64,000 bases of DNA, taken from positions 5,465,001 through 5,529,000 of the forward strand of contig NC_010571.1 in NCBI RefSeq assembly GCF_000019965.1, in the 5' to 3' direction. The notes below the pieces were generated by a model. It saw nothing but the letters and a program-made list of their open reading frames with translations. It was not told the DNA's origin and ran no database searches. Both the position numbers and the translations under genes were made by a program. How positions within the stretch are numbered: position 1 is the first letter of the stretch; the number at the start of each line of letters is the position of its first letter. Origin of the DNA: Opitutus terrae PB90-1 (GTDB lineage: Bacteria > Verrucomicrobiota > Verrucomicrobiia > Opitutales > Opitutaceae). This document shows positions 6,099 through 25,911 of the stretch, piece after piece.

Positions 6099-8924
6099 TC
6101 ACGGTGGCGCAAGGGAATTCGTCGTCTCCAACGGCACGGGATTCCCGAGGAACAACACCCGGCGCCCATCCAGCTCGTACCACGTGTCTTCCCGCAAGCC
6201 GCCGCGCACCATGCGCACCTCGCGGTCCAGCAGCCCGCGGTCGCGGGCGTTGTAGATCATCACTCCCGTGCCGCGCGCCGTCGGCACGCGAATCGCGAGC
6301 AAAGCCTTCACGGAATCGCGCATGTACGGCCGCAACTGCAGCGTCGCCGTGACCACCGCGAAGGCGGACTGCTCCGGCAGGGCCTTGGCGCGCGCGAGCA
6401 CCTTCAAGCTCGCGACCCCGGTGGGTGCATAGCGGTCCCAACGCTGCAACGGCCCGCGCAATCGCCGGCCGAAGCCGTCGTCGATCAGTTCGTAGCGGCC
6501 GGTGGCGAGCAGCGCCTGCGGATCGGTGACCACTTCTTTCGACAGCGAACGATCAGCATTTTCGAGCCGCGACCGCACCTCCGCCGTCAGTCGGCTGCTC
6601 TCCGCCGCGAGCGCCGGCGGCTGGGCGGCTTGCAGCGCCTCGCGGACGCCGGCCAGCGAATGCACGAGCGCGCCAACCGTGATCAAGCCACCGAGCACGA
6701 AACTGGCGGCCACATCCCACCAATGCGGATCCGGCGCGGGCGGCGAACGCCGGGCCTCGGCCGAAAACTCCGCCATCGCCACGCGCAGGCCCACGGCCTG
6801 CTGCATGAGCTCGGTGGGATGCACCTTGCCCTTCGCCAGAACCCGCGCGGTCTCCGACGCGGCGCGTTCCGTCCCGTCGCTCCAGAGCCAGGGCCCGGCC
6901 ACGTGATCATACCGGTGCATCGTCCGCTGCACGCGCCACCACAGCCACGCACGTGAACCGATCAGGGCCGCGGTGGCCACGATCGCCGGCGTGCCTGAGC
7001 GGTCGAGCACGGCGAGCAGGGCCGCCACCGCGGCGACGGCGGTCCCAAACAGCGGCCACGGCGCGCCCCACAGCCGGCTGCGTCGCAGCAGTTCATACAG
7101 CCGCACCCAACGCAGCGCACCGGAGATCGCATCCAGCTCGGTGCGCAACGCGTGATAGCGCTCGTTGCGCGAATCGGCATGCGTGATGAATCCGCACTGC
7201 TCCGGCGTCTGGCCGGTGAACGCGAGCACGATCTGCTCCACCGGCGTCGCAGTCTTGCTGTTGAGCATGCGCGCCAGTTCCGGGTACCGACTCGTCGCAT
7301 ACGTCGACTGCAGCGCGGTCACCCGTTCCTGCAGCGCGTTCATGCGCTGCACCGCCAGCGAGAACAGCCGCACGAACCCGGCGTGATCCCCGTCGTCAAG
7401 CCAGCCGGCCTCGAGCACGATCTTCAACGCCGCCCCCGCGCGGGCGGCCAGCCCCTTCAGCACGCGCGCGGCCACGGGGTCCAGCGACTCCACATACTCG
7501 ATCAGCGGCGGATGCAGCAGCCCGCGCACGATCGCCACGCCTTCGGCCCCGCCGGGGTTCTTCAACAGCTCGAGCAGGCCCGCGGTTTCCATGGCGCAGC
7601 CCCGCACCCGAAGGTTCGCCCGCCCTCCGGCGCCAGCCGCGAGCGCCAGCCAGCTGATCCCGACGATCAACGTGCGGCGCGCCAGCTCCGGCACCTCAGC
7701 CCACGCGGGACTGTTGGCGAGCTCCGTGACCGCGCGTAACCGGTCCCAGTCCGCGCGATGCGCCGGCGTTTCCCGCAAAAAGTGCGCCAGCGTGTCCGGC
7801 TGGTACGGCTCCAGCAGCGTCGTCTCGCCCGCCGCCCAGGTCGGCGCCTGGGTGAAATACTCCGCCGCATCGGGCAGCGTGAACACGCGCCCGCCGGAGC
7901 GCCACAGCCGCACGTTGCGCGGCTGATCGTAGTAGTCGCGAACGTTCTCGTGCCGGAGCCAGCGCTGCACCATGTCGCCGCGCCACCGGGCATCCATGGA
8001 GCCGGTGAGCAAGCCGCGCAGCAGCGGCAGTGCCGCCGGCTCGGCGCCCGTCTCCTCCACCGCGCCGGCGCGGGCCCCCGCCGGTTCGCGCTCCAGCAGC
8101 AACTGCTCGGCCCGCTGCCGCAGCTCCGGCGCCGTGCGCGGGCCGGTGCGCTTGAGCAAAAACATCACCACGTGCTGGCCGAGCAGCACCTCTTGAATGA
8201 CCCGGCCCAGCGACCACCAGTCCCACGCGCAGAGTTGCGGCCCCGGCGAATGCCGCGCCAGCCCCGCCGCTTCGGGCGGCGCATAAAACGGATCCACTTC
8301 GATCGGGATCAACTCGGGCTGCTGGAAAAGCGTCACTTCCTGCAACCCGCCGACGACGAACTCGGGCCCGTTGGCGCCTTCTTCGATGTGCAGCGACTCC
8401 GGCTGGAGATTCAGATGCACCAGGCCGTCCGCATGCAGCGCATCCAGCGTGCCGGCGACCTGCTGGACGAGCGCCTCCAATTCGTCGAAACGCGGCCGAT
8501 GCGCGGAGAGCCACTCAGCCACCGTCGTGGACGGCGGTGCCGCCATGACTTCATAGCGCCAGCCGTTTTCCTCAAACGCGTCGAGGCAGCGGAGAACTTT
8601 GGTCTGCTCCATCGCGCAGAGCTGCGCCCACGCGCGCCGGCGCCACTCGATGCCTTGGGTGACCAGCCGCGCCGTGATCAGCACCTTCTCCATCTTGCCC
8701 ACATCTTCCGCGAGATAGCTGTGCCGGGCGCCGGGGAACACCCCCCCCAACGTGAATCGGTTCCAGCGCTGCCCAGGCACGGCTTCATTGCCGTCGGGCT
8801 GCAGGAAAGGCATGGCCGCGGCGTCCGGCAACGCGGTCACCGGCGGGTGATCAGCGTCAACCGTCCTGGCTTCGGGTTCTGGCATGGGTGATTCGGGCAA
8901 AACTCCCTCCGGTCTAGACGTCAC
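6099..8924 (-). CDS. Membrane protein with degenerate Ser/Thr kinase (pseudokinase) domain
   Basis: The protein has 941 residues. I keep the GTG start at 8924 because GAGGGGG lies just upstream at Shine-Dalgarno distance. Residues about 50-290 have a protein-kinase fold pattern. The catalytic loop reads LVHLNLQPESLHI where active kinases have HRDxKPxN, so the catalytic Asp is Asn, the Lys is Gln and the Asn is Ser. The DFG motif is replaced by VVGGLQE, and no clear VAxK lysine is seen in KMEKVLITARLV. It is therefore probably a pseudokinase. The C-terminal part has hydrophobic segments (PLFGTAVAAVAALLAVL, IVATAALIGSRAWLWW, and WWDVAASFVLGGLITVGALV) that look membrane-spanning, followed by a soluble domain. 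A scaffold or signalling role is inferred. It lies upstream of prfB. Confidence 0.75.
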   Translation of the reverse strand: MTSRPEGVLPESPMPEPEARTVDADHPPVTALPDAAAMPFLQPDGNEAVPGQRWNRFTLGGVFPGARHSYLAEDVGKMEKVLITARLVTQGIEWRRRAWAQLCAMEQTKVLRCLDAFEENGWRYEVMAAPPSTTVAEWLSAHRPRFDELEALVQQVAGTLDALHADGLVHLNLQPESLHIEEGANGPEFVVGGLQEVTLFQQPELIPIEVDPFYAPPEAAGLARHSPGPQLCAWDWWSLGRVIQEVLLGQHVVMFLLKRTGPRTAPELRQRAEQLLLEREPAGARAGAVEETGAEPAALPLLRGLLTGSMDARWRGDMVQRWLRHENVRDYYDQPRNVRLWRSGGRVFTLPDAAEYFTQAPTWAAGETTLLEPYQPDTLAHFLRETPAHRADWDRLRAVTELANSPAWAEVPELARRTLIVGISWLALAAGAGGRANLRVRGCAMETAGLLELLKNPGGAEGVAIVRGLLHPPLIEYVESLDPVAARVLKGLAARAGAALKIVLEAGWLDDGDHAGFVRLFSLAVQRMNALQERVTALQSTYATSRYPELARMLNSKTATPVEQIVLAFTGQTPEQCGFITHADSRNERYHALRTELDAISGALRWVRLYELLRRSRLWGAPWPLFGTAVAAVAALLAVLDRSGTPAIVATAALIGSRAWLWWRVQRTMHRYDHVAGPWLWSDGTERAASETARVLAKGKVHPTELMQQAVGLRVAMAEFSAEARRSPPAPDPHWWDVAASFVLGGLITVGALVHSLAGVREALQAAQPPALAAESSRLTAEVRSRLENADRSLSKEVVTDPQALLATGRYELIDDGFGRRLRGPLQRWDRYAPTGVASLKVLARAKALPEQSAFAVVTATLQLRPYMRDSVKALLAIRVPTARGTGVMIYNARDRGLLDREVRMVRGGLREDTWYELDGRRVLFLGNPVPLETTNSLAPP

Positions 8925-9130
8925 GCCACCCCCTCGACTTTAGGATCGATCCCGAAACAGGTTTGCCCCACCCGCACCTGAGTGTGGGGTGGCCTGGGAA
9001 ATGGCGCGCCGTGCCCTCGAGGCGCCGTTTGGCGAGAAAGCTTCCTCGGGGTGTTGGCGCCAACGCGCCGCACCTTCACGCCTTGGGCGCCGTGCGGTTA
9101 CGTTATCCGCGCCCGGCCGCGAGTTTGGAG
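8925..9130. other. Intergenic region between tatC and the pseudokinase gene
   Basis: This 206-bp stretch has no convincing gene. It holds an imperfect hairpin (CCCCAC..GTGGGG near 8966-8990) that could terminate tatC transcription on the minus strand, but it lacks a clear T run. Confidence 0.4.
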
Positions 9131-10120
9131 TCACCCCGCTCCTGCGGTCGCTTCGGCCCGGCGCTTCTTCCAATCCCAGTAACGCGCGATCAGGATGCTG
9201 ATTTCGTAAAGCAAATACAACGGCACGGCCATCGCGACCTGGGTGATCACCTCCGGCGTGGTCAGCAGTGCGCCGACGATCAGCGTCAGCACGATCACAT
9301 GCCGGCGGTAGTGGGCGAGCTGCTGGTGGGTGACCAGCCCGAGCTTCACCAAAATCAGAACCACGATCGGGAACTGGAAACCAATGCCCATGCCGACGAT
9401 GAATTTCATCACGAACCCGATGTAGCCGTCAGCGCGCCAGTCGTACGCCTCAAGTCCAAGCAGATGCGAGTATTCGATCGACGCCCGCAGCGCCAGCGGC
9501 AGCAGGACGAAATACGTCGCCGCCACGCCGCTGAAGAACAGCAGCACGCCCCAGCCGAGCCACTGGTAGAGCACCGACTTCTCGCGCACGCTCAGCGCCG
9601 GCAGGAAGAATTGCCCCATGAAATAAATCCAGAAGGGCGCGGACACGATGATCGCGCCGTAGATCGCCACGTGAAACGCGATGAAGAACGCGTCGGCCGG
9701 GCTCAGGTTGTGCAGCCGGACGCGGAGCGCGCCCAGGCTTTCCGGCGGCGTGGGCTCCGGCACCAGTGTGGCCACCTGGTGCTCGCCGATCTTCGCCGAG
9801 CCGACGTGATAAGTGACGTTCGGATTGTCGCTGCCCGGCAGGCCGGGGAACTCGTCGGGCTTCACTTCGTAGGGCCCGAGCTGCGTGCCCCCGATCTTGA
9901 ACGTGACGGTCGGCTTCGCCTTCTCGAACACGTTCATCCGTTGCAGCGGGTATTCGAGCAGGAGTACGAGCTTGTCGGCAATCAGCAGGCAAACGACCAA
10001 AGCAATCCCGATCGCGATTGCCGAGCGCACGAGCGCCGTGCGCAAATCGCGCAGGTGGTCCCAGAAAGATTTTTTCTCGCTGGTCTCTTCCTCGTCCAGC
10101 TGTTCGTCGACTGCACTCAT
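9131..10120 (-). CDS. tatC: Sec-independent (Tat) translocase subunit TatC
   Basis: TatC is the twin-arginine signal receptor of the inner-membrane Tat translocase. The cytoplasmic N-terminus KSFWDHLRDLRTALVRS matches the conserved HLxELRxR region. Six hydrophobic spans follow, with the typical FWIYFMGQFFLPAL and the later GMGIGFQFPIVVLIL. I take the ATG at 10120 (329 aa); a TTG at 10159 is less likely. E. coli TatC has 258 residues. Here the periplasmic loop between the first and second membrane spans is about 75 residues longer and reads as an extra folded insert (KPTVTFKIGGTQLGPYEVKP and beyond). tatA and tatB are not in the window. Confidence 0.93.
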   Translation of the reverse strand: MSAVDEQLDEEETSEKKSFWDHLRDLRTALVRSAIAIGIALVVCLLIADKLVLLLEYPLQRMNVFEKAKPTVTFKIGGTQLGPYEVKPDEFPGLPGSDNPNVTYHVGSAKIGEHQVATLVPEPTPPESLGALRVRLHNLSPADAFFIAFHVAIYGAIIVSAPFWIYFMGQFFLPALSVREKSVLYQWLGWGVLLFFSGVAATYFVLLPLALRASIEYSHLLGLEAYDWRADGYIGFVMKFIVGMGIGFQFPIVVLILVKLGLVTHQQLAHYRRHVIVLTLIVGALLTTPEVITQVAMAVPLYLLYEISILIARYWDWKKRRAEATAGAG

Positions 10121-10209
10121 GCGAGCGGCGAGACGAACGGGCGCGGGCTGCAATGGCAAGCCGGTTGGCGGCTAGGCGCATTCACGGAGCGCAAATCAGC
10201 TTTGGGCAC

Positions 10210-10301
10210 GTGGCACGGGCATCCTGCCCGTGGCGTGGCATGAGCGTCTCGCCCATGGTTGCGGCGCGAAGCGCCGTCCACGGGCAGGATGCCCGTGCCA
10301 C
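10210..10301. repeat. Palindromic repeat element with 23-bp inverted arms
   Basis: The arms 10210-10232 and 10279-10301 are exact reverse complements and begin GTGGCACGGGCATCC. Each arm is itself palindromic around CATCCTG. A further GGCGCGAAGCGCC stem lies between them. The element sits between tatC and fcl and ends eight bases before the fcl stop codon. It belongs to the GGCACGGGC..GCCCGTG family also seen near 50230, 58600 and 61224. Confidence 0.85.
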
Positions 10302-10308
10302 CTCCGTG

Positions 10309-11244
10309 CTACATCCGCAGCGTGCCGGCGGCTTTCTCTTCGAGGAACGAAGCATACGTCCGGGCCACGCCTTCGCGCAGATCGATGTGAGCCTGCCAAC
10401 CCAGCTTCGCCAGCCGCGAGCCATCCATCAGCTTGCGCGGCGTACCGTCGGGCTTGGATTTGTCCCAAACGATCTCGCCGGTGAAGCCCACCACCGCGGC
10501 GACGGTTTCGGTGAGCTCCTTGATGGTGACGTCTGTGCCGCTGCCGACGTTGATCCAATCCGGAGGGTTCTCGAGTCGAAGCAGGAACGCGCACGCGTCC
10601 GCCAGATCGTCGACGTGGAGGAATTCGCGACGTGGCGCACCGGTGCCCCACGCGATCACCTCGGGACGCCCGGCTTCCTTCGCCTCGTGAAACTTCCGAA
10701 TCAGCGCGGGCAGCACGTGCGAGTTTTGCAGGTGGTAGTTATCGCCTGGGCCGTAAAGGTTCGTCGGCATCGCCGAGTGGAACAGCACGCCATGCTGTTT
10801 GCGGTAATATTGGCAGAGCTTTAGGCCGGCGATCTTCGCGATCGCATAAGCTTCGTTGGTCGGCTCGAGCGCGCTCGTCAGCAGGCTGTCCTCCGGAATG
10901 GGCTGCGGCGCAAGTTTCGGGTAAATGCACGAGCTGCCCAGAAACAAGAGCCGGCTCACGCCGTGCCGATACGCGGAGTGCACCGCGTTGGCGGCCACCA
11001 TCAGGTTGTCGTAGATGAAGTCGGCGGGATAGGTGTTGTTGGCGTGAATGCCGCCCACCTTCGCCGCCGCGATGATCGCGACGTCGGGGCGCTCCGTGGC
11101 GTAGAACTGGTCCACCGCCGCCTGATCCGTGAGCTCAAGCTGCGCGCGGGTGCGATGGATCAACTCGATGCCGGGTTCGCGCGCAAACCGGCGCGTGAGC
11201 GCGGATCCGACCATGCCTTGATGTCCGGCGATATAAAGCTTCAT
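10309..11244 (-). CDS. fcl: GDP-L-fucose synthase
   Basis: This NADPH-dependent epimerase/reductase makes GDP-L-fucose from GDP-4-keto-6-deoxy-mannose for surface polysaccharides. I start at the ATG at 11244 ([16 protein letters not shown]), giving 311 residues, the usual family length. The Rossmann GHQGMVGSA motif is at the N-terminus. The SSCIYP motif and the catalytic YAIAK (Tyr-x3-Lys) are present, as is [10 protein letters not shown]. It follows gmd on the same strand with a 189-bp gap, so the two genes form the classical GDP-fucose pair and may share a transcript. Confidence 0.95.
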
Positions 11245-11433
11245 GCGGCAAGGCCCACGAAACACACGAACAACCCGGAAGGGGCAAACGCTTTCCCGCC
11301 CATCAGGCGCAGGATCGCGAATTCTCCCCACCGGCGCGGTGATCGCGGGGCATGCGACGCGGCGAACGCGCAGCGTAGGGGTGCCTCTTTCGTGTCCGTT
11401 GGCGTCATGCGCGGGCCGCGGATTGGATTCGAT

Positions 11434-12450
11434 TCACAATTTCGGCAGGTCGTTGATCTGTCGTTCGCGTTTCGCCAACTCGAGGTCGGACTCGACCATG
11501 ATCTTCACCAGGTCCTTGAACCGCACCTTGGGTTCCCAGCCGAGCTGTCGGCGCGCTTTGGCCGGGTCGCCGATCAGCAGATCGACTTCCGAGGGGCGCT
11601 CGTAGCGGTCGTCGTATTTCACGTAGCGTTGCCAGTCGAGGTCGAGCAAGCCGAACGCCGTTTCGCAGAACTGGCGCACCGAATGCGTCTCGTTGGTGGC
11701 GACCACGTAATCGTCGGGTCGGTCCTGCTGCAGCATCAGCCACATCATCTCGACGTATTCCTTCGCGTAGCCCCAATCGCGCTGCGCGTCGAGGTTGCCG
11801 AGGTAAAGCGCGTCCTGCAGCCCGAGTTTGATCCGCGTGGCGGCGCGGGTGATCTTGCGCGTGACGAAGGTCTCGCCGCGGCGCGGCGACTCGTGATTGA
11901 ACAGGATCCCGTTGCTCGCGTGCAGCGCGTAGCTTTCCCGATAGTTCACCGTCAGCCAATAGGCGTAGACTTTCGCGCAGCCGTAGGGCGAGCGCGGCCA
12001 GAACGGAGTGGTCTCGGTCTGCGGCACCTGCTGGACCTTGCCGAACATCTCCGACGACGACGCCTGATAGTAGCGGACCTTTTTCACCAGCCCCGCCTCG
12101 CGGATCGCCTCGAGAATCCGCTGCGCGCCGAGCCCGTCGACGTCGCCGGTGTATTCTGGAATGTCGAACGACACGCGCACGTGCGACTGCGCGCCGAGAT
12201 TGTAAATCTCGTCCGGCTGCAGTTCGTAGAGCAGCTTCACCATCTGCACCGAGTCGGCGAGATCGCCATAATGCAGGAACAGCTTTACCCCGTTCACATG
12301 CGGATCGCGGTAAAGATGGTCGATGCGGCTGGTGTTGAAGGTCGAGGCGCGGCGGATGATGCCGTGCACTTCGTACCCCTTGGCAAGGAGCAGCTCGGCC
12401 AGATAGGACCCGTCCTGGCCGGTGATGCCCGTGATCAGTGCTTTCTTCAT
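11434..12450 (-). CDS. gmd: GDP-mannose 4,6-dehydratase
   Basis: It converts GDP-D-mannose to GDP-4-keto-6-deoxy-D-mannose, the step before Fcl. The start at 12450 gives [20 protein letters not shown], which places the NAD(P)-binding [10 protein letters not shown] at the N-terminus; the product is 338 aa. The SSEMFG motif and the catalytic [12 protein letters not shown] (Tyr-x3-Lys) are visible, as is [16 protein letters not shown], typical of the family. A strong terminator-like hairpin on the same strand lies 56 bp upstream of the start codon. Confidence 0.96.
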
Positions 12451-12505
12451 GAAAATGGGAGCGACCGTATGATTTGGCTCGGGCTCAGCAAGTTCCACGT
12501 CGGTC

Positions 12506-12564
12506 AAAAAAGCGCCGCCGGCGCGGCTGAACGCTCAGGGTTTCCCTGAACTCGCGCCGGCGGC
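12506..12564 (-). terminator. Intrinsic terminator / attenuator-like hairpin ahead of gmd
   Basis: A perfect 12-bp stem (12553-12564 pairs with 12514-12525, GCCGCCGGCGCG) encloses a 28-nt loop that contains a nested CAGGG..CCCTG stem. On the minus strand it is followed by GC and six T residues (12511-12506). No minus-strand gene ends upstream of it, so it would interrupt transcripts reading toward gmd. Confidence 0.75.
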
Positions 12565-12674
12565 TTGTGAAGCTCGAAATGCACGTCACCACGCCGCGGC
12601 GACATCGCCGTGGCCCGCAGGGGCACACGCCACGAGTCCGGAATCGCGTAACCCGGTCGCAGGGGCTTCTCGGG

Positions 12675-12730
12675 TTGTAGGGCCGGCGTTCACCGCCGGC
12701 CGCGGCTGCCGGCGAGCGGCAGCCCTACAA
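12675..12730. repeat. Palindromic element with TTGTAGGGC terminal inverted repeats
   Basis: The 56-bp element has 9-bp terminal inverted repeats, TTGTAGGGC and GCCCTACAA. They enclose two smaller stems, GCCGGCG..CGCCGGC and CTGCCG..CGGCAG. The same termini bound the element at 50178-50289. The surrounding 12451-12819 region holds no gene besides this element and the hairpin. Confidence 0.85.
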
Positions 12731-12819
12731 GCGGGCGAATTCAGGATGACGCGAAAAGCCGACCGTGGAACGCGGGCTTGTGCGGTTGCTTCGCCGCCGG
12801 ATTCGGCTGCATTCGCTGC

Positions 12820-14178
12820 ATGCCGTTCGCCTCCTTCAATCCGGCCACCGGGCAGCGGATCGCCCGGCGCCCGTCGCACTCGCGCGCCCAAGCGTTCGCC
12901 ATCGTCGCGCGGGCTGAACGCGCCGCCCAGCCATGGCGCAGCACCGCGCTCGCCGAGCGAGCGCGAACCTTGCGGGCCGTCGGCCGCGAACTGCGCCGTC
13001 GGCGCGACGACTTGGCCGCGCTGCTCACCGCGGAGGTGGGCAAGCCGATCAGACAGTCCCGCGCGGAAATCGAGAAATGTGCCGCGGGTTGCGAGTACTT
13101 CGCCGCGCACGCCGCGCGCGCTTTGCGACCGCAGCACCCCATCGGCGCGCCGCGGCACGCCCGGGTGGTGTTCGAGCCGCTCGGCATCGTGCTGGGAATC
13201 ATGCCGTGGAACTTTCCCTTCTGGCAGACGTTTCGGGCCGCCGCGCCCGCGTTGATGGCCGGCAACGTGCTGTTGTTCAAACCAGCGCCTAGCACAGCCG
13301 GCTGCGCGCTGGCGATCGAGGCGGTGTTCGACGCCGTCGCACCGAAGGGATTGCTTCGAACGTTACTGGTCGAGACCGATGCCGTCGCTACGCTCATCGC
13401 GGACGCTCGCGTGCGTGGGGTGACGCTGACGGGCAGCACGCGCGCGGGGCGTGCCGTGGCTGCACTCGCCGGCGGGGCGATGAAGCCGGGGGTATTCGAG
13501 CTGGGCGGAAGCGATGCCTACCTCGTGCTGGACGATGCTGATCTTGATCACGCCGCCGCCGTCTGCGCGCAAGCGCGGCTGGTGAACTCTGGCCAAAGCT
13601 GCATTGCCGCCAAGCGGTTCATCGTGCTCGCCGCTGTGCGCGGCGAATTCGAACGACGGTTCGTGGCCCACATGACTGCGGCGAAAGTGGGCGATCCCAC
13701 CGATCCGGCGACCGACGTGGGCCCGCTCGCGCGCGCCGATCTCTGCGATCAGCTGCACCGGCAGGTCAAACGCAGCGTGCAACGCGGCGCCCGGGTTTTG
13801 CTCGGCGGCGCTCCAGCGCCAGGCGCCGGGTTCTACTACGAACCCACGGTCTTGTCCCGCGTGCGTCCCGGCATGCCCGCGTTTGACGAGGAGTTGTTCG
13901 GTCCGGTCGCCGCAGTCATCTCTGCGCGCGATGAAACGGAAGCGATCGCGCTCGCCAACCGCTCGATCTACGGACTCGGCGCCGCGGTGTTCACGCGGGA
14001 TCGGCGTCGCGCCCGGCGAATCGCAGAGCAGCTCGAGGCCGGGTTTATCGTGACGAACGATTTCGTGCGCTCCGACCCCACCCTGCCCTTCGGCGGCGTG
14101 AAACAAAGCGGCTACGGTCGCGAGCTGGGCGACTGGGGCGTCACGTCGTTCGTAAACGTGAAGACAGTCATCGGCTGA
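12820..14178 (+). CDS. NAD(P)-dependent aldehyde dehydrogenase, succinate-semialdehyde type
   Basis: It oxidises an aldehyde to a carboxylate. The start at 12820 (MPFASFNPATGQRIA) gives 452 residues, which suits the short GabD1/Sad-type succinate-semialdehyde dehydrogenase group. Motifs in order are MPWNFPFWQTFRAAAPAL (cofactor site), LTGSTRAGR, the general base Glu in FELGGSDAYLVL, the catalytic Cys in NSGQSCIAAKR and the C-terminal LPFGGVKQSGYGRELG. The substrate is inferred from overall resemblance. The gene converges with the YcaO gene, 100 bp away. Confidence 0.9.
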   Translation: MPFASFNPATGQRIARRPSHSRAQAFAIVARAERAAQPWRSTALAERARTLRAVGRELRRRRDDLAALLTAEVGKPIRQSRAEIEKCAAGCEYFAAHAARALRPQHPIGAPRHARVVFEPLGIVLGIMPWNFPFWQTFRAAAPALMAGNVLLFKPAPSTAGCALAIEAVFDAVAPKGLLRTLLVETDAVATLIADARVRGVTLTGSTRAGRAVAALAGGAMKPGVFELGGSDAYLVLDDADLDHAAAVCAQARLVNSGQSCIAAKRFIVLAAVRGEFERRFVAHMTAAKVGDPTDPATDVGPLARADLCDQLHRQVKRSVQRGARVLLGGAPAPGAGFYYEPTVLSRVRPGMPAFDEELFGPVAAVISARDETEAIALANRSIYGLGAAVFTRDRRRARRIAEQLEAGFIVTNDFVRSDPTLPFGGVKQSGYGRELGDWGVTSFVNVKTVIG

Positions 14179-14278
14179 CTCCCTTGGTCATCCGGGCCGT
14201 AGCGACCGCCGGAAACACGGATCCCGGCGGCCACTCGAGCCAGGGTGGCACGCCGGGATCAACTACCCTCCTCTACTA

Positions 14279-15172
14279 CTACCAGAAAAAGTAACGCTCG
14301 GTGTCGGCGAGGAAGTCGCGGCTCGGCGGATCGATCAGCACCCGCCACACCGCCGCGTAGTCCGACCAGGGCCCGCGTAATTCCGTGTCATAGGCCACGC
14401 GCGCCACGAATCGACGGCCGGTCGTCTTCCGCTGCAGCCGGGCCTGGAACAACGCATGCCCCTCGGCCGACGAGAAGAACAGGGCGCGTCGCTCGAAGAG
14501 GTCGGATGGAGCCGCCTCGGCGGTGACGCCGCGCGAGAGCCGGTGCAGTCCGAGCACATACTCGTGTCGCGCGAGTTCCATGACCGCGCGCTCACACGCA
14601 CCGAAAAAGTCCGTCGCGGCGCCGTGCCCGTAGGCAAAGGTGTCCGGCCGCACCTCGCGGAACGCGAGCACGGTCACGCCGTAGCCGATCGGGCTCGGCA
14701 GCACCAACGCGCTGATACCCGGCCATTCCGTCGGACGCACCTCGCCATCGAGCAATCCCTCCCACCACGCCAGCACGCTTGCGCGCTCGACCGCCTCCAG
14801 CATGGCGCGTTTCCGGGCTTGCGACGGAAACATGCCGGGAAACGCCGCCATGCCGTTGGAGGATTCATCGAGATCGAAGCCATACAGCTCGCGGTCGTCG
14901 GCCCGCACCTTCACATGGAAGGCCCAGCGCTCCATCGCTTCCGAAATCGCCATGTAGCGGGCGACCATCGGCACGTCAGCCGCCCCGGTGCCATCGGCAT
15001 CGCTGTAGAGCGCGAATTTCCGTCGTTCCGGGATGACGCCGTCGGCCAGCCAAGCGTTGGCCTGATACATCCGGCGACCATAGACGGGAAATTCGCGCAC
15101 CGCGATCCGGGCGATGGGACCACCATCGGACTTCAGGACGTTCCGGTAGCGAAAAGCGGCAAGACTAAGCAT
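14279..15172 (-). CDS. Stand-alone YcaO-domain protein
   Basis: This 297-residue protein carries YcaO ATP-binding signatures. They are SEAMER (Glu78, Glu81, Arg82), SSNGMAA (residues 104-110, the SNGxAAG motif), LEAVER (Glu126, Glu129, Arg130) followed by a WW pair, and YGHGAATDFFGACERAVMEL. YcaO enzymes use ATP to activate peptide amide backbones, making azolines, thioamides or amidines in ribosomal peptides, or modify RNA or proteins. There is no fused ocin-ThiF or E1-like partner and none nearby, and the protein is shorter than most YcaO proteins. It starts 10 bp after the stop of the small exported-peptide gene, so translation is probably coupled. That peptide is the natural candidate substrate, which is an inference. 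Confidence 0.85.
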   Translation of the reverse strand: MLSLAAFRYRNVLKSDGGPIARIAVREFPVYGRRMYQANAWLADGVIPERRKFALYSDADGTGAADVPMVARYMAISEAMERWAFHVKVRADDRELYGFDLDESSNGMAAFPGMFPSQARKRAMLEAVERASVLAWWEGLLDGEVRPTEWPGISALVLPSPIGYGVTVLAFREVRPDTFAYGHGAATDFFGACERAVMELARHEYVLGLHRLSRGVTAEAAPSDLFERRALFFSSAEGHALFQARLQRKTTGRRFVARVAYDTELRGPWSDYAAVWRVLIDPPSRDFLADTERYFFW

Positions 15173-15182
15173 GGAAAGAGAA

Positions 15183-15401
15183 TCAACGAACCGTGCTTGA
15201 GGATACCGTCAGCGGACGGACGTTCAACACGCAGGGCACTGCGCACCCAACCCCAGGGCCGGCGCGGTGCATCTCCAGCGATTCGCTGGTAATGGTGAGT
15301 TGATGACTAAGCGGATCAAGGCGTTCCGCCGCCCGGGAGAGTCCTGCCGCGAGCAGGAAGCTGGAGATCAGACCCACGAAGACGCGTTTGTATGTGTTCA
15401 T
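15183..15401 (-). CDS. Small exported peptide next to YcaO, candidate substrate
   Basis: This 72-residue gene starts at the ATG at 15401. The N-terminus MNTYKRVFVGLISSFLLAAG is a good Sec signal peptide, with probable cleavage after LSRA. The mature part ends in GPGVGCAVPCVLNVRPLT followed by VSSSTVR, with Cys53 and Cys57 and a cluster of Ser and Thr, residues that YcaO cyclodehydratases act on. The stop codon is 10 bp from the YcaO start. I recognise no known family. It could equally be a short secreted protein unrelated to YcaO. It is divergent from the hybrid kinase gene with 84 bp between them. Confidence 0.6.
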   Translation of the reverse strand: MNTYKRVFVGLISSFLLAAGLSRAAERLDPLSHQLTITSESLEMHRAGPGVGCAVPCVLNVRPLTVSSSTVR

Positions 15402-15485
15402 CGCGGACAAGGTGGGGTCCGCATTCAGCACGCGCCATGAGGGAAACTGCCTGTTTTTGCGGCAAGCGCTACGTATTTTTCTGTA

Positions 15486-18400
15486 GTGACCCGGTCGCAG
15501 TCTCCCGCCCATCATCCTCCGACCGTGCGTCCCGCCCCGAAACCCGTGCTGCTGCTCCACTGCGCGCTGCTGTATGCAGCTGCCCTGATCGGCGTCACGA
15601 TCACGAGCAGCGCGGCAGAGGAGGGCCGGCCCATTCTTCGCTCATTCGGCACGCGGGAGGTAGGCAGCGGCTACACCCTGCATTGGAGCGCCACCGAAGA
15701 CGAACGCGGCGTCATGTATTTTGGCTCCGACGTGGTGAGCACGTTCGATGGGGAACGATGGAAACACTACCCGGTTCCCGGCGGCACCGTGGTGCGATCG
15801 CTTGCGGTCGGCAGCGATGGCCGCGTGTGGGTCGCCGCATTGAACCAAATCGGTTATTTCGAGCGGCTGCCCAACGGGGATCTCGGCGCGTACCGGTCAT
15901 TGTTGGCCCAGCTCCCGACCGCGAATCGGGAACTCGGCGACGTCTGGCACGTATTCGCCCATCCGGCCGGAGCGGTGTTCGTCACGTCCAATACCGTGCT
16001 GATCTGGGATGGCACTTCCTTCCACGTCAGCACCATGCCGGGTGAACGGCGGCTTCCTGCTTTTCAAGTAGGCCGTCGGATCTTCGTTTCGCATCGTTCC
16101 TCTGGAATCTGGGAGGTGGAAGGGCAGGCGCTCCGGCGAGGCGTTTCGCCGGAGGAATTGGGGAATACCACGGCACTCTGGCTCGAGCCCCGCAACAACG
16201 GCTGGTTCGTCGTGAGCCCCGCTGGACTGTTTGAACTTCACGCGGGAGTTCGGACCGAGGTGTCGGAGGAGCTTTCTGCTTTTGTGCGCCAAAACATCGT
16301 CACCAGCGTGTGCCGGCTTTCCACGGGAGAACTCTGCATCGCGACGTTAGGTGGCGTCGGCGTGCTAAGTGCGAATGATCAAACGACCTCGATTCTCACG
16401 TCAAAAGAAGGACTGCCGTCTTCGGCGGTACTTTCGCTTTTTGGCGCTCGGGACGGAGCTTTGTGGATTACATCCAGTCTGGGCATCACGCGTGCCACCA
16501 TTGGCAGCGGCACGAGTATTTTCGATGAGGAGAACGGCCTGACCTCGCGGCCCTGCAACGGAATCGTGCAAACCGGTTCGCGCCTGTTTGTTTCGACGGA
16601 CAACGGCGTGTTCAGCCTGCCATTGGGACTTGGGGCTGAAAACGCGTTTCAGTTGGAACCGGAAATGGCGGCACGCTTCGTCGATCTCGCCCCCGCCGAG
16701 CATGGGTTCTATGCCGCAGGATACCGCGGTGTCTATTGGATGGGAGACGGCGGACTCGTCGAATCCTTCCGCACCAAGGTCGAGCCGATCCTGCTCCAGC
16801 GATCACAACGGCTCAACGAATTCCTGCTCGCCGACAACCTCGATCTTTACCGCCTGACCGAGGAAACGCCAGGTCGCCTCCGAGCGCAAGCGGTCGGACG
16901 ACTGCCGGATTTGCCGGTCGCGATCGTGGACGACGACGACCGAAAGTTCTGGGTGGGGACCGGCTCCCGTGGCGTGTTCGTGGTGGACGCGCAGGCTGAA
17001 ACCACGCGGCTGTCACCGGTCGGCGGTGGTGACTCGACCAATCCCGGGCCGGTGCTGGTGGCACGGATCGGATCGGCTATCGCGGTCTGCGGCGACGGCG
17101 CGACTCGGCTTTATCCGCGCGGAAAATCCGTCCCTGTCCGCGTGGCCGCGATGCCGACGACGGCCGCGTTCGCCATGTCCAACGAGGGACCGCCCGGCCA
17201 GATCTGGATCGCTTTCGCCAGCCCGTTTCCCGACGGCACCACCTCGCCTCTCCTCGGCCGGCTGACCCTCGCCGGCGAAACCGCCCGCTGGCAACCCTTC
17301 AGCATTCCGGGGCTGGAGCGCGTGGGTACGATCAATCGGCTCTTCGTCGACCAGCGGGGCATTCTCTGGGTCGGCGGCACGGACGCGCTGCTGCGGATCG
17401 ATCCGGCCCAGCTGAAACCCACCGCCCCGCCGCGGATCCCGCTGCTGCGCGGCAGCGTGCCGGAGTTCGCCGAGGTGCCGCCGGACCAGAATACGCTCAC
17501 CGTGCAATTCAGCGCCGTCGAATACGGCCGGCGCGAAACACTGCGGTTTCAAACCCGGCTCTCCGGCAACGCAGACTGGTCGGCGCCGACGGATAACAGC
17601 CATCTGACGCTCGCCGGGCTGCGCGACGGCACCTACGAGTTTGCCGTTCGCGTCATCAACGACGCCGGCATGACCAGCCCCGCCGCCACCTGGCATTTCA
17701 CCGTGCTGCCCCCGTGGTACCGGACGCGGCTGGCGTTCGCACTCTGGACCGTTCTGGCCATTGCGGGGTTCACCGGCGGGATCCACTGGCGCTCGGCGTA
17801 TCTCCGCCACCAAAACCTCCGGCTCGAGGCGTTGGTGCGGAAAAAAACCGAGCAGCTCGAGCAGGCCAACAACGCCAAATCGGAATTTCTCGCGAACATG
17901 AGCCACGAGATCCGCAACCCGATCTCTGGCATCGTGGGGCTGTCGCTGGCCATCGAGGAGACGCCGCTGAGCGAGCGCCAGCGGCAGATCGCCGACTCGA
18001 TCCGCAGTTGCGCCTCGCTGCTTGCCACGCTCGTCGACGACGTGCTCGATTTTTCCAAGATCGAGGCCGGCAAGATCGAGTTGCGGCTCGCGCCGTTCGA
18101 GCTGCGCGCCGCGTTGGAACAGTGCGCTGCGATGGTGGCCGAGGAGGCCCGCGCCACCCACACGCCGATCGAGATTTCCTTGCCGCCGGAGCTTCCCGCC
18201 AGCCTGATCGGCGACTCCGCCCGCGTGCAGCAGATCGTGCTGAATTTTCTCACCAACGCGGTGAAGTTCGGCCCCGGCAAACCCATTCAGATCGGCGCCA
18301 CCGCGGTGCCAGGCGGACGCATCCGGCTGTTCGTCCGCGATCACGGGCCCGGCATGAGCGCGGCCGAGACAACCACGCTGTTCACCAAATTCACCCGACT

Positions 18401-19367
18401 CGATCGCGCGCGCTCCCAAAACATCCGCGGCTCCGGTCTCGGCCTCGCCGTGTGCCGACTGTTGGCCACGAAAATGGGCGGCAACGTCGGCGTCGAATCG
18501 CAGCTCGGCCAGGGTTCCTGCTTCTGGGCCGAGCTCCCTTTGCCGTCGTCCGCGCCGCCGCCCGAGTCGGTCGGCGTGGCCGCGCCGACCGCGTCGCCTT
18601 TGCACGCGTTAATCGTGGAGGACATCGACTACAACGCCGCCGCGATGCAGGCCGTGCTGCGCAAGATCGGCATCACCTCCGACGTTGCCTCCGACGGACT
18701 CTCCGCGCTGCGCAAACTCCAAAGCGATCGCTACGATGTCGCGTTCATGGACTGGAACCTGCCCGGCATGATCGGCACGGAAGTCGTCGCGCGCTACCGC
18801 GCCGTCGAGCCGCCCGACCGGCACACGATCATCATCGCGACCACGGCGTATTCCGGGACGTTCAACCAGGAGGCGTGCCTCAAGGCCGGCATGGACGCGT
18901 TCGTGTCGAAGCCGTTCACTCCCGAAAAAATCGCGGCGGCGCTGCACGATCTGCGCGGGCCACTCCGCGCCGCGGCTTCGGTCGAGGTGAGCCGCCGGCT
19001 CGACGCGCCGGCCCCGCCGCCGGAAATCGACCTCCAGCTGCTCAAGTTGCTCGGCGAGGACAGCGAAGGCGGCGTGCCCGCGCAGATCGACCGCTATCTC
19101 GCTGCCTTTACGGCCGAGCGGGATGCCACCGACGCCGCTGTTCGCCGCGGCGACGCGAAGGAAATCCATCGCGCCGCGCACCGGATGATCTCGCACGCGA
19201 CAATGGTGAAATATGAACCGCTCGCGCAGCTCGCCTCCCAACTGCAGGCCTACGCCGCCACGGCGGAGCCCGACCGGTTAACCCGCCTGCTGGCCGAGTT
19301 CGACGCCGAGTTTGCGCGTTTCAGGAGTAAACTGGATTCGATCCGTGCTTCGCTGGCACCTGCGTGA
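15486..19367 (+). CDS. Hybrid two-component sensor kinase: propeller, Y_Y_Y, HK, REC, HPt
   Basis: The product has up to 1293 residues (GTG at 15486; a GTG at 15525 is an alternative closer to the signal sequence). Order: signal sequence (about 18-43), a periplasmic two-component-regulator propeller (45-650), a Y_Y_Y domain (about 660-740), one membrane span ([18 protein letters not shown]), HisKA with the phospho-acceptor in [15 protein letters not shown] (about residue 806), HATPase with [18 protein letters not shown] and GSGLGLA boxes, a receiver domain with Asp in [10 protein letters not shown], and a C-terminal HPt with [12 protein letters not shown]. This layout senses periplasmic carbohydrates in Bacteroidota systems; the ligand here is unknown. 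Its 3' end overlaps the NarL-type regulator by 47 bp tail to tail. Confidence 0.92.
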
Positions 19368-19983
19368 ACCCGTGCTCGATCGCGAACGCGATCAGCTTCG
19401 GCGTGCCCTTGAGTTTCAGCTTTTGCAGCAGATGACTGCGGTGCGTTTGCACGGTGCGAGGTGAAAGCTGCAGCCGCTCGCCGATTTCCTCGTCGCTCAA
19501 ACCCTGTCCGATCAGCGAGAGGATCGCGCGCTCCCACTCGGACAAAACTTTGGTGAACGAACGCGGGTCGTTGCGTCGGGCGAGCTTGGCCCGCTGGAAC
19601 GCCGCCGAGAAATAGACGCGCCCCTCCTCGATCGACTTGAGGGCGTCCTGCAGGGCCTCGACGGTGTTCGAGTTCTTGTCGAGAAACCCGTGCACACCGG
19701 ATTTTTCCACGCGGAAAAGCGTATAGTCATCGCAATGCGAGGATACGACCAGGATGCGCGTCTCCGGCAGCACGCTCAGCACCCGGTCGACCACGTTGAA
19801 CCCGTCCATATCCGGCAGCGAGAGATCGAGGATCACCGCATCGGGTTTCTCCCGGAGAATCACCTCGACGGCCTGCACGCCGGAATCGGTTTCCCCGACG
19901 ATGGTGTGCCCAAACCGCCGGCTGCAGATCTGCCGGATCACGTCCCGAAACATCAGGTGATCTTCAACAATGACGATTCTCAC
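19321..19983 (-). CDS. NarL/LuxR-family response regulator
   Basis: The 220-residue protein has an N-terminal receiver ([16 protein letters not shown], phospho-acceptor Asp53 in [13 protein letters not shown], Lys in FLDKNSN) and a C-terminal LuxR helix-turn-helix ([20 protein letters not shown] and [17 protein letters not shown]). It binds DNA when phosphorylated. Its last 47 bp overlap the last codons of the hybrid kinase on the other strand, so the two cannot share a transcript. Partnership with that kinase is possible by proximity, but the kinase already ends in an HPt domain and other partners exist. Confidence 0.92.
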
Positions 19984-20094
19984 AGTTGCGCATCAAACCG
20001 GTACCCGACTAGCAGCTCAAGCTCCGCGGGCGACACATCCAGCACTAAATCAACGCATCCGGAAAGCTAGCTTTATGCGCGGCGTCAACCAACC

Positions 20095-20204
20095 GGCCGG
20101 CGCTGCGCGGCGGCCGGCGGCTACGCAGCCCCTGGGCGCGCGGGCGTACCGCCCGCATCGGTGGATGTCCGGCCGAAGGCGGAGCCCGGCGTTCCCGCCG
20201 GGCT
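20095..20204. repeat. Cluster of three palindromic stems in a 274-bp intergenic region
   Basis: Three stems follow one another: CCGGCCG..CGGCCGG near 20095-20118, GCGCGGGCG..CGCCCGC near 20136-20156, and AGCCCGGC..GCCGGGCT at 20183-20204. They are short hairpin repeats of the same general type as others in this window. They lie between the regulator gene and the 3' end of the first giant gene. No gene is seen here. Confidence 0.65.
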
Positions 20205-20257
20205 GGAGTGTCGTAACGTCGTAGCCGCAAGAAAGTCTTACGGCTTCCGCGGCGCGA

Positions 20258-23200
20258 TCACGGGCCCACCACAATCAGGTCCGTGATGTCGACGCCGTCC
20301 TGTTCGAGCACGGCTTGGTTGGTCTGCGCCGGCAGAACGTGATCGTGCGAGGTTCGCCCTTCGGTGAAACGGATTTGCGTGATGCCGTCCACCTTCACGG
20401 TCTGGCCATTCGGCTGATGCAGGTTGCCGCCGGCGACGCGCACCTCGGCGATCGCGCCAAAGACCAAGACCGGACTCGCCGAGTCGAACGCGCTCACGTC
20501 GCCGATGTTCACCGGTCCGGCGAATTCCACGCCAGGAGCGTAGATGCCCGTGAACCCTTGGCTCGCGAAGTAGTGCACGTTGCCCGTGCGAACGCTGCCA
20601 AACTCGCCATTCGCACTCTGAATCGCGATGAACGCAATGTCCGCCACTCCATCGTAGGTCACGTCACTGCGGAACAGCGCCTGATTCACGGCCGTGACCG
20701 ACCCGACGCTGAACACGCACACGTTGCTGGTTTCGTTCGCCCCCGTGATCACGATCGCGGCGTGGCCGCGCACATAATCGACTCCGGGCTGGATGTAGTT
20801 CACCGGCGCGGCCGGAATGGTCGCGCCATTGACCAGGAGCGAAAGCGTGCCCGCGCCGGAGAACTCCACCTGCACGATATCGTCGCTCAGATCGATGAAC
20901 GAGGTCCGCGTGATCTGATTCGGATTGGTTGTAACGGTCGCACTCGGGCCTTCGAGCAGCACCTGATCGTAGGTGTTTCCGTTCGGATGCTGCACGTCGG
21001 TGAGGACTTCCTCCGCCAGGCCTTCGACTTTGTCCGTCGTGGTGAGGCCAACGATCACCGGATCGCTCGTGGTCACCGTACCGTCCGGCGCGCTGACCGT
21101 ATAAGTGTAAAGTCCGACGTTCGCCGATTGAACATTGGTGAGGGTCAACGTCGAACCAGTGGCTCCGCCGAGATTCGAGCCGTTGCACTGCCACTGGTAG
21201 GAACAACCGGAGCCGCTCGGGCCGACCGACAAGCTCGCGGTGCCTCCGCTCGTCGGTGGCACGATCGGCGGCGGCGGCGCGGCTTCCACCGTGAAGCTGC
21301 GCTCGACCGGCGGGGCGGCTTCGTAATCGCTGTTGCCCGGCTGCGTCGCGCGAATCGTGACGGTGCCCGGAGCCCCGGTGAGCGTTACTGTGGTGCCGCT
21401 GAGCGTCGCCGGCCCGGACGCAATCGCGAACCTCACCGTCAGCCCTGAACTCGCGCTCGCACTCAGCGTGAACGGTCCGTCGGTCGTGAGCTTGTCGGCG
21501 GGCGCCGCGAAAGTGATCGTTTGCGAATCCTTGCTCGGCGGTGGTGGCGGCTCCGGCTCGTTTTCGACCGTCAACGTGCCATTGACGTAGCTGAACGTGT
21601 AGTTGCCCGAAACCCCACCCGCCGGCGTGATCGGGTACGTGCCCGCCGGAGACGCCACGGTCGCCGTCGTCGTCGCCGTGGGCGCCGTCGTCAGTGACGC
21701 AGCCGTGTCGCCGTTGCGGAAACCGGCGTAGCTCACGGTGAAGGTGGGATTCGCGTTGCCCACATAGCGGTTCGCGTTGTTTGCCGTCACCGACAGGGGC
21801 GCCTTCGCCATTGTCAGGACCAGCGTCGATCCCGGTCCGGTGCCGTTGCCGTTCGTACCTTGGAGCACGACGTTGAACGTGCCCGCCTGCGTCGGCGTGC
21901 CAGAGATCTCCCCCGTCGCCGCGTTCAGGCTCAGGCCGCTCGGCAGCCCCGTCGCCGAGAAACTCGTTGGACTCTCGCTCGCCGTGATCGTGTAGCCCGC
22001 GAACGCAGCCGCGTACGTTCCGCTGGCGGATAGCGTCGCATTGGTGATCACCGGCGTCGGCGGCGCGGCCTCTTTGATCAACAGCGAGTCGTAGGCCCCG
22101 ATCTTGGGGAGTGCCGGCGTGGTCAGGTCGCTGAAGCTGAATCCGCCGACGAGATAGAGATCGTTCATCGCGTCGACCGCGATGCCTTTGATGTCCACCT
22201 CAGCGCCCGCGCCGCCATAGTTTTTTGCGGATAGTACGTCGCCGCTCGCGCTGAGCTTGATCAGCAGTGTGTCCTGCGCCCCGATCGGCGTCAGTGCAGG
22301 CGTGGTAAGGTTGGCGCCTCCGAAAAACCCGCCCGCGTAGACGTTGCCGGTCGCATCCGTTCCGAGCGCCCAATCCTCGGCGGTCGCACCGACGCCGCCG
22401 AAACTTTTGGCCCACACGGTCCCGCCGTCCGTCGGATCGAGTTTCATCACCAGGGCGTCACTGTCTCCATTCCGGATGACCACCGGCACTGTCAGGTCCG
22501 CGCCGGCGGCATATCCGCCGACATACACGCCGTCACCGGTCACCGCAACGGCTTCCATTCCGGCCACCGCACCGGCACCGCCATAATCTTTCGCCCACGC
22601 GAATGTCCCGTCGCCGGAGAGTTTCACCACCAACGCGTCATAGACACCGAGCTTGGCGATCGCCGGGGTCGTCAGATCCGCACCCGTGAAATATCCGCCC
22701 AGATAAACGTTGCCGGCTGCATCCACGCCCAGCCCGTTGAAATTTGTCGTGGCGCCCGCTCCGCCACAATTTCTGCCCCACTGCACTGCGCCATCGGCCG
22801 CAGCGAGCTTCAGCACCAACGCGTCCTCAGTCGTGGTGCCGATGGGTGAGAGCGTCACGCCCGCCGCCAGCGTCAACGCGGCCGAGGACGCACAACCGGC
22901 CAGGTAGACGTCGCCGGCCGGATCCACCGCCAGCGCATAACCGAGCGCCCTCGCGCCCGCGCCACCGTAGTTTTGCGCCCACAGCACGTCGCCGTCCGCC
23001 GCATCGAGCTTCATCACGAAGGCATCGGTCGCCCCGACTTTTGTCAGCGCCGGAGTCGTCCAGCTCGCCGTGAAATACCCGCCCACATACACGTGGCCGC
23101 TCGCATCCACCGCGATGCCTCGAGCGTAGGCGTTGCCGCCCGCGCCGCCGCAATTCTTCGCCCAAAGCACCGAGCCTTGGGGCGTGAGTTTCGCCACAAA

Positions 23201-25804: not shown

Positions 25805-25911
25805 AACAGGACAACACACGGTTCTCGGCGGCGTTGTGCTGCGCCGAGGGGGGGGATCACAGCCAAGGCCTCTCGCCGAACGCGCTAAAGCGCGCTGATC
25901 CTGAGAAGCGC

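Follow-up and report, generated by a model that had tools for sequence, protein, structure and literature searches.

The locus considered here lies in Opitutus terrae PB90-1, a member of the Verrucomicrobiota, within a stretch of 64,000 nucleotides (bases 5465001-5529000 of a 5,957,605-bp genome, one contig) that was analysed as a whole and is called the window below. A minimal, stand-alone YcaO-domain enzyme is encoded 10 bp behind the gene of a small peptide that has a signal-peptide-like leader and a tail containing cysteine, as the first-pass annotation of this DNA had stated and as the two open reading frames confirm (Table 1). The coordinates of the peptide frame assume a start at the ATG at 15401. 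A hybrid histidine kinase gene diverges from the peptide gene across a shared intergenic region with a candidate operator, and a response regulator gene lies at the far end of the kinase gene.

Table 1. Features of the peptide-YcaO locus and its flanks (positions in the window)
Feature	Position	Strand	Basis
YcaO-domain enzyme, 297 aa, minimal, stand-alone	14279..15172	-	PF02624, predicted fold
Precursor peptide, 72 aa, signal-peptide-like leader and Cys-containing tail	15183..15401	-	Held-out profile, alignment of 49, dN/dS, order-wide search
Conserved leader, residues 1-31, MNTYKRVFVGLISSFLLAAGLSRAAERLDPL	15309..15401	-	Consensus of 18 aligned peptides, dN/dS
GCAVPC motif in core, presumed modification site	15231..15248	-	Read directly from sequence
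Candidate operator CTACAGAAAAATACGTAG (minus strand), shared kinase-peptide intergenic region	15469..15486	.	Similarity by eye
Hybrid histidine kinase	15486..19367	+	Pfam; real start possibly downstream of 15486
Response regulator, receiver and LuxR/GerE DNA-binding domain	19321..19983	-	Pfam

The surroundings had been described as devoid of an E1-like partner, a protease and a transporter. A Pfam scan of ten window proteins (6099-25819) agrees as to the first two, since it contains no protease and no E1-like/ThiF C protein, and the latter is not fused to the YcaO enzyme either; the sole transport protein among the ten is TatC, encoded at 9131..10159, about 4 kb from the pair. An outer-membrane exporter or maturation protease is absent from the same ten proteins and from the neighbours that recur over 23 loci of the family. 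No AgrB-family processing protease occurs among the ten, the tailoring gene here being the YcaO. The downstream neighbour of the YcaO gene encodes an aldehyde dehydrogenase (Pfam), and no other dehydrogenase was seen among the ten proteins or the recurring neighbours. A PADLOC search gave zero matches. Adjoining the response regulator is a gene for a predicted protein of 1853 residues (20258-25819, minus strand) with RCC1 repeats and TIG, fn3, MBG and Ig-like domains; at 6099-8924 (minus strand) a protein of 941 residues carries a protein-kinase-like domain slightly under the Pfam cut-off.

The ATP-binding signatures reported earlier as intact in the enzyme (SEAMER, SSNGMAA and LEAVER) are all present. 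Of the ATP-binding signature residues, S77, E78, E81, G107, E129 and R130 are invariant in 21 YcaO sequences and N106 is nearly so. The protein matches Pfam PF02624 with E=5e-8, which clears the curated cut-off, and is the sole match of its genome at E<=0.001; 19 of the 21 aligned relatives, itself included, match at E<=0.01. The only NCBIfam match, to SagD, is below threshold. In an hhalign comparison with E. coli YcaO, the segments SNGM and ExxER are aligned, at a probability of just 38%, and PDB sequence searches with the single protein or with the alignment found zero YcaO matches. A structure was predicted with a pLDDT of 90. When it was compared with the PDB by VIA-align 2, the best 13 rows were all YcaO enzymes (Z 12.5-16.9, 238-267 residues) and the row after them scored Z 5.9; Foldseek alone returned nothing at E<=0.001 and had none of these 13 entries in its top 50. 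By its predicted fold and its signature residues, the protein belongs to the YcaO superfamily.

A search with the single protein matched 15 of 387 Verrucomicrobiota genomes, the weakest match (E 9e-4) lying outside the Opitutales. A 21-row profile matched 14 of 387 genomes across the phylum, every one of them Opitutales, and found 43 places in 40 of 372 Opitutales genomes. Phyla beyond the Verrucomicrobiota were covered by a scan of assembled contigs, which is sensitive to close relatives; its eight loci are all from MAGs named Opitutaceae, Opitutales, Opitutae or Opitutia. One genus has the gene in 11 of 13 genomes (one gene broken) and another in 10 of 21. Altogether 65 distinct YcaO loci were examined, and 63 are usable after removal of L024, where the upstream sequence is absent, and L195, where several stop codons break the YcaO gene (G696, a genome merely 74% complete). 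Also left out were L025, on the same contig as L035, and L016/L040, a weak match outside the order. Among the 63 genes kept, no pair of equal length is more than 90% identical. In one clade (L039, L084-L088) the YcaO proteins are without the conserved C-terminal YFFW/YFFL end, and the tails of the peptides are alike in having one Cys, in many cases as SIYC or IYC.

A small leader-type frame on the same strand precedes the YcaO gene in all 63 usable loci (median gap 28 nt, range -4 to 253). The frames were picked by hydropathy and a start-codon score with three corrections by eye, so that an independent held-out profile test matters. With a profile from seven peptides (that of the window included), the 42 other loci gave 10,602 six-frame segments to rank, of which the first 31 were all designated peptides, and the designated peptide was detected in 33 of the 42 at E<=10. 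A leader profile from 48 of the first 49 loci detected 13 of 14 later ones. Profile support, the seven training peptides counted, thus covers 53 of the 63. The other ten (L032, L033, L036, L037, L074, L075, L076, L079, L082 and L203, the last found by eye) were assigned by the ORF scan; most are short and mutually alike (L033, L037, L075, L076 and L079; L032 and L074 with L034), and the assignment in L036 is doubtful. A chance reading frame as the source of the 72-residue peptide is ruled out by the held-out test. When 372 Opitutales genomes were searched with an 18-peptide profile, 27 of the 31 places found were directly beside a YcaO gene, and the four away from one are the weakest (E 0.0024-0.0094) and fall inside long ORFs; at 16 of the 43 places with a YcaO gene the same profile did not detect the peptide.

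The leader has the consensus MKTxxRxxLGxxSSLLLxxGFxRAAxRLDP in 18 aligned peptides. Its dN/dS is 0.07-0.43 in the 32 of 38 pairs for which it could be computed (the other six are saturated) and 0.23-0.31 in three of the four pairs that involve the window, the fourth giving no value; these are rough values because synonymous sites are near saturation. The leader evolves under purifying selection. Two observations had been named in the first-pass annotation as ones that would speak against its reading, namely relatives with a YcaO gene and no small gene beside it, and a peptide gene free of purifying selection; what was found at all 63 loci, and in the leader comparisons, is the opposite of both. 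Mean hydropathy reaches at least 2.0 over 12 residues in 37 of 63 leaders and an AxA-like site occurs in 55; in the peptides of 39-50 aa the resemblance to a signal peptide is weak and hydropathy stays below 2.0. Sec export is plausible for many members of the family. With a conserved leader and a variable core next to a modifying enzyme, the locus has the arrangement expected of a YcaO-modified RiPP.

The tails are hypervariable. Cysteine, whose invariance had been suggested as a check, is common (59 of 63 tails) but not invariant, and three of the other four (L037, L075 and L079) have Thr at the Cys site. The tail of L036 has neither, and its last 14 residues are without Cys, Ser or Thr. Both motifs singled out earlier in the window peptide, GCAVPC and VSSSTVR, are there, but the second is not conserved in the family. 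P[CT] is found within the last 40 residues in 40 of 63 peptides. Cys and Thr are exchanged at one site in two clades, for example YPCEV and WPCEV in L033/L076 vs YPTEV and FPTEV in L037/L075, and AFCDTVCNF in L029 vs AFTETVCNF in L198. Cores are repeated in six of 63 precursors; L200 contains five copies of KSSAFSELPCQFS, and among the repeat-core precursors L035 is related to L073 and L029 to L198. Core repeats together with the Cys/Thr exchange suggest short processed products in which the side-chain nucleophile matters.

The pair does not stand by itself. The first-pass annotation had recognised peptide and YcaO correctly but had overlooked the flanking kinase and LuxR-type regulator as parts of the module, and the presence of this linked sensor kinase and regulator changes the likely function. 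In Pfam, the window kinase matches a Reg_prop propeller, HisKA, HATPase and a receiver domain; Y_Y_Y and Hpt each fall just short of the cut-off. A divergent upstream ORF homologous to it was found in 59 of 63 loci (weakest E 7e-56) and by tblastn also in L072, L074 and L194, which gives 62 of the 62 loci with enough sequence, L087 being left out as it begins too near a contig end. In an all-against-all comparison of 23 loci, counting L025 and L035 from one contig, a single kinase family is present in 22 and the response regulator in 20; the remaining large clusters overlap kinase, regulator or YcaO on the opposite strand, and over these 23 loci no third gene recurs beside the locus across many lineages (neighbour families were scanned in the window). 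That a LuxR-type response regulator, a Reg_prop hybrid histidine kinase, the peptide and YcaO form a genuinely conserved module of the Opitutales is as good as certain. Kinase and regulator probably control the peptide-YcaO pair.

Unlinked kinases of the same kind were also found. The proposal that all of them fall outside the clade of linked kinases was rejected: UN_L125 (L125 5287-9147, G271) and UN_L126 (L126 1850-5242, the second copy in G657) nest inside it with no adjacent peptide or YcaO, and UN_L116 and UN_L130 group beside L036, L070 and L071 within the wider linked group. The kinases of L125 and L126 are candidates for receiver-only systems, or else remnants; the G271 genome has zero YcaO matches.

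Operator-like palindromes precede part of the family's peptides. Upstream of the peptide gene, palindromes with at least 7 of 8 pairs occur in 15 of 49 regions against 1.2 expected, and WACCN8GGTW occurs in 13 of 49 against 0.23 expected, the palindrome pattern and the interval having been picked post hoc, once the sequences had been viewed. The window sequence CTACAGAAAAATACGTAG resembles, by eye, the sites in L018, L019, L020 and L061; with only 4 of 8 pairs in the palindrome test it is not itself scored as a palindrome. A degenerate pattern drawn from sites of the L018, L019, L020 and L061 type has one match in the 5.96-Mb genome, at 15469..15486, and the reversed control has zero.

Core, enzyme and sensor change together in parts of the family. 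In L030 and L031 (genomes G166 and G178), a 2.7-kb block that runs over the kinase sensor, the peptide and the YcaO N-terminus is about 55% identical between flanks of about 90%. Individual windows within the block (sensor, intergenic region, peptide and YcaO start) have 48-67% nucleotide identity and those of the flanks mostly 80-99%, with one 150-nt flank window at 69% and the stretch 100-250 nt into the YcaO gene at 71%. The two kinase proteins share 96% identity in the kinase domain and 39% in the sensor. Over 184 pairs, with kinase domain and YcaO C-part allowed for, core similarity correlates with that of YcaO residues 1-60 (partial rho 0.46, permutation p 0.001) and less with that of the sensor (partial rho 0.21, permutation p 0.03); sensor and YcaO 1-60 correlate at 0.42. 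An earlier test of core against sensor gave p 0.0005 over 861 pairs and p 0.10 in the 81 pairs with kinase identity >0.5. All these permutation p values, obtained with L036 left out, keep some effects of relatedness. The core thus varies together with the N-terminal part of YcaO and, to a weak degree, with the sensor. Eight pairs have a kinase identity of at least 0.90. The two with similar cores have sensors at 0.68-0.71 and YcaO 1-60 at 0.90-0.98, and the six with different cores have 0.40-0.55 and 0.50-0.72; the eight are not independent, and two that involve L200 have a YcaO C-part of 0.63-0.64. In L035/L073, the core is kept and part of the sensor has diverged. L198 and L200, both from G711, have kinase domains 99% identical, sensors 44% identical and different repeated cores, a pattern that suggests homogenisation of the kinase part.

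A fast-changing sensor is not specific to the peptide-YcaO module. An unlinked Reg_prop hybrid kinase at syntenic positions in G166 and G178 (L128 4827-8711 and L143 4672-8601) has a sensor swap just as sharp, which does not extend beyond the kinase gene; the kinase half and a flanking gene, metallopeptidase-like by eye, are about 90% identical, and neither leader peptide nor YcaO was found within the 1.5 kb scanned around L128 in G166. Other unlinked kinase pairs have a moderate sensor drop in one case and none in another. Sensor hypervariability as proof of ligand identity is weakened by L128/L143. The idea that the sensor evolves faster in linked than in unlinked kinases was also dropped, the ratios of sensor to kinase divergence being alike at matched kinase identity, with few unlinked pairs to compare.

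Taken together, the results support the first-pass annotation in its reading of the peptide as a YcaO substrate, plausibly exported by Sec in many members, and we lean slightly towards a locus that is a self-contained peptide-signalling module, in which YcaO modifies an exported peptide sensed by the linked kinase. Its parts deserve different degrees of belief. It is very likely that YcaO acts on the adjacent peptide; that the peptide product is the kinase ligand is only modestly favoured, the identity of the ligand being read with caution because G166 and G178 also contain an unlinked kinase whose sensor is swapped. For the chemistry, export, cleavage, ligand and regulator binding we infer the following course. 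YcaO, using ATP, would modify the backbone of the C-terminal tail, most likely by azoline ring closure at Cys (or Thr), in many cases within an xPC motif, and its N-terminal region probably helps to recognise the peptide. The leader would bring the peptide to the cell envelope by way of Sec, and cleavage there would leave a short product that carries the modification. It is this product that the neighbouring hybrid kinase may sense with its periplasmic propeller, its Hpt domain then passing the signal to the LuxR-type regulator, which would bind the palindrome between the kinase and peptide genes and so control both.

The modified peptide might instead have another job, such as metal binding, redox protection or the inhibition of competitors, with kinase and regulator sensing stress or a substrate and turning the pair on in response, with no binding of the peptide to either. 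Copper-binding exported RiPPs that contain cysteine do exist (bufferins, as described in part of PMC12452194), Cys is kept in most of the tails, the unlinked kinase likewise has a fast-changing sensor, and two related kinases persist where no peptide is found. A specificity system is, however, the better fit to hypervariable tails, repeated cores and a core that covaries with YcaO N-terminus and sensor, and only kinase and regulator recur beside the locus across lineages (with neighbour families scanned in the window). This account seems rather unlikely. Less probable still, and by a wide step, is that the substrate of YcaO is some other protein and that the small gene just happens to encode a secreted neighbour. 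YcaO proteins can have other proteins as targets, E. coli YcaO being annotated as an accessory factor of S12 methylthiotransferase, and the four tails that lack Cys would be in line with this account, but it leaves aside the association of peptide and YcaO with each other throughout the order, the conserved leader, the repeated cores and the covariation of core and YcaO N-terminus.

A further alternative concerns the chemistry within the signalling reading, a thioamide or amidine taking the place of the azoline; on balance it is doubtful. TfuA-independent thioamidation is known and counts in its favour. YcaO enzymes can also form amidines (ItfB is the example given in part of PMC10352776), and stand-alone YcaO proteins occur in bottromycin clusters (according to a portion of PMC4603692). 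Against it, two clades have Cys and Thr interchanged at a single site, which is what ring closure by the side chain would predict. TfuA was found in none of seven genomes tested, that of the window included, which counts against TfuA-dependent thioamides only.

The best-known examples of sensor kinases that respond to modified peptides come from Gram-positive bacteria. A search of the open-access literature by title and abstract found no description of a YcaO with a linked kinase in the Verrucomicrobiota, and the module looks like a hitherto undescribed route by which these bacteria emit and perceive a chemical signal. More tentatively, and a little short of an even call, it can be pictured as a Gram-negative pheromone system: a lone YcaO would make a heterocycle-bearing, Sec-exported signal, the linked Reg_prop kinase would be its type-specific receptor, and enzyme N-terminus, core and sensor would co-diversify into groups resembling mating types. 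If the signalling reading is true, soil and water Verrucomicrobiota have a testable system of cell-cell communication, Reg_prop hybrid kinases gain a possible ligand, and two genes suffice as a minimal RiPP pathway. RiPPs with Sec signals, a rare group by the account of PMC12452194, would also gain a second enzyme family.

Several known systems share features with the locus. Bacteroidales BGC8 and BGC6/ItfB are likewise YcaO clusters of Gram-negative bacteria, some of them near suspected signalling proteins; as described in part of PMC10352776, they differ in that they have radical SAM enzymes as well as transporters that contain a peptidase and go with GG-motif precursors; neither kind recurs here. 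Clusters with a stand-alone YcaO are known but poorly understood, in the account given by a portion of PMC4603692. LAPs/TOMMs and stand-alone-YcaO RiPPs such as bottromycin also combine YcaO with a precursor containing Cys, Ser or Thr; the present locus differs in its Sec-like leader, in the sensor kinase that is part of the module, and in having no E1-like C protein among the ten window proteins or the recurring neighbours. Sec signals are rare among bacterial RiPPs, and export by Sec in the natural host has been demonstrated experimentally for bufferins only, as far as the relevant part of PMC12452194 states. Like the locus described here, bufferins and other MNIO-modified RiPPs have small Cys-containing precursors encoded next to the modifying enzyme; theirs carry N-terminal signal peptides, which the leaders of many Opitutales peptides resemble (same part of PMC12452194 for the bufferins). 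Their enzyme is an MNIO with partner proteins and bufferins chelate copper, whereas the Opitutales locus has YcaO, linkage to a kinase and no third recurring biosynthetic gene. A further parallel is the staphylococcal agr system (agrBDCA), where AgrB takes the place held here by YcaO; a Sec-like leader, a Reg_prop hybrid kinase, a LuxR-type regulator and a host among the Verrucomicrobiota set the present module apart, and its peptide is a putative ligand. Both have neighbouring genes for a peptide precursor, an enzyme that tailors it and a sensor kinase (parts of PMC10482373 and PMC12312760). A hypervariable region is contained in agrB, agrD and agrC (part of PMC10482373), and a single hypervariable block over tailoring enzyme, peptide and sensor is likewise seen in the Opitutales module, clearly in L030/L031 and with the support of the statistics over 184 pairs.
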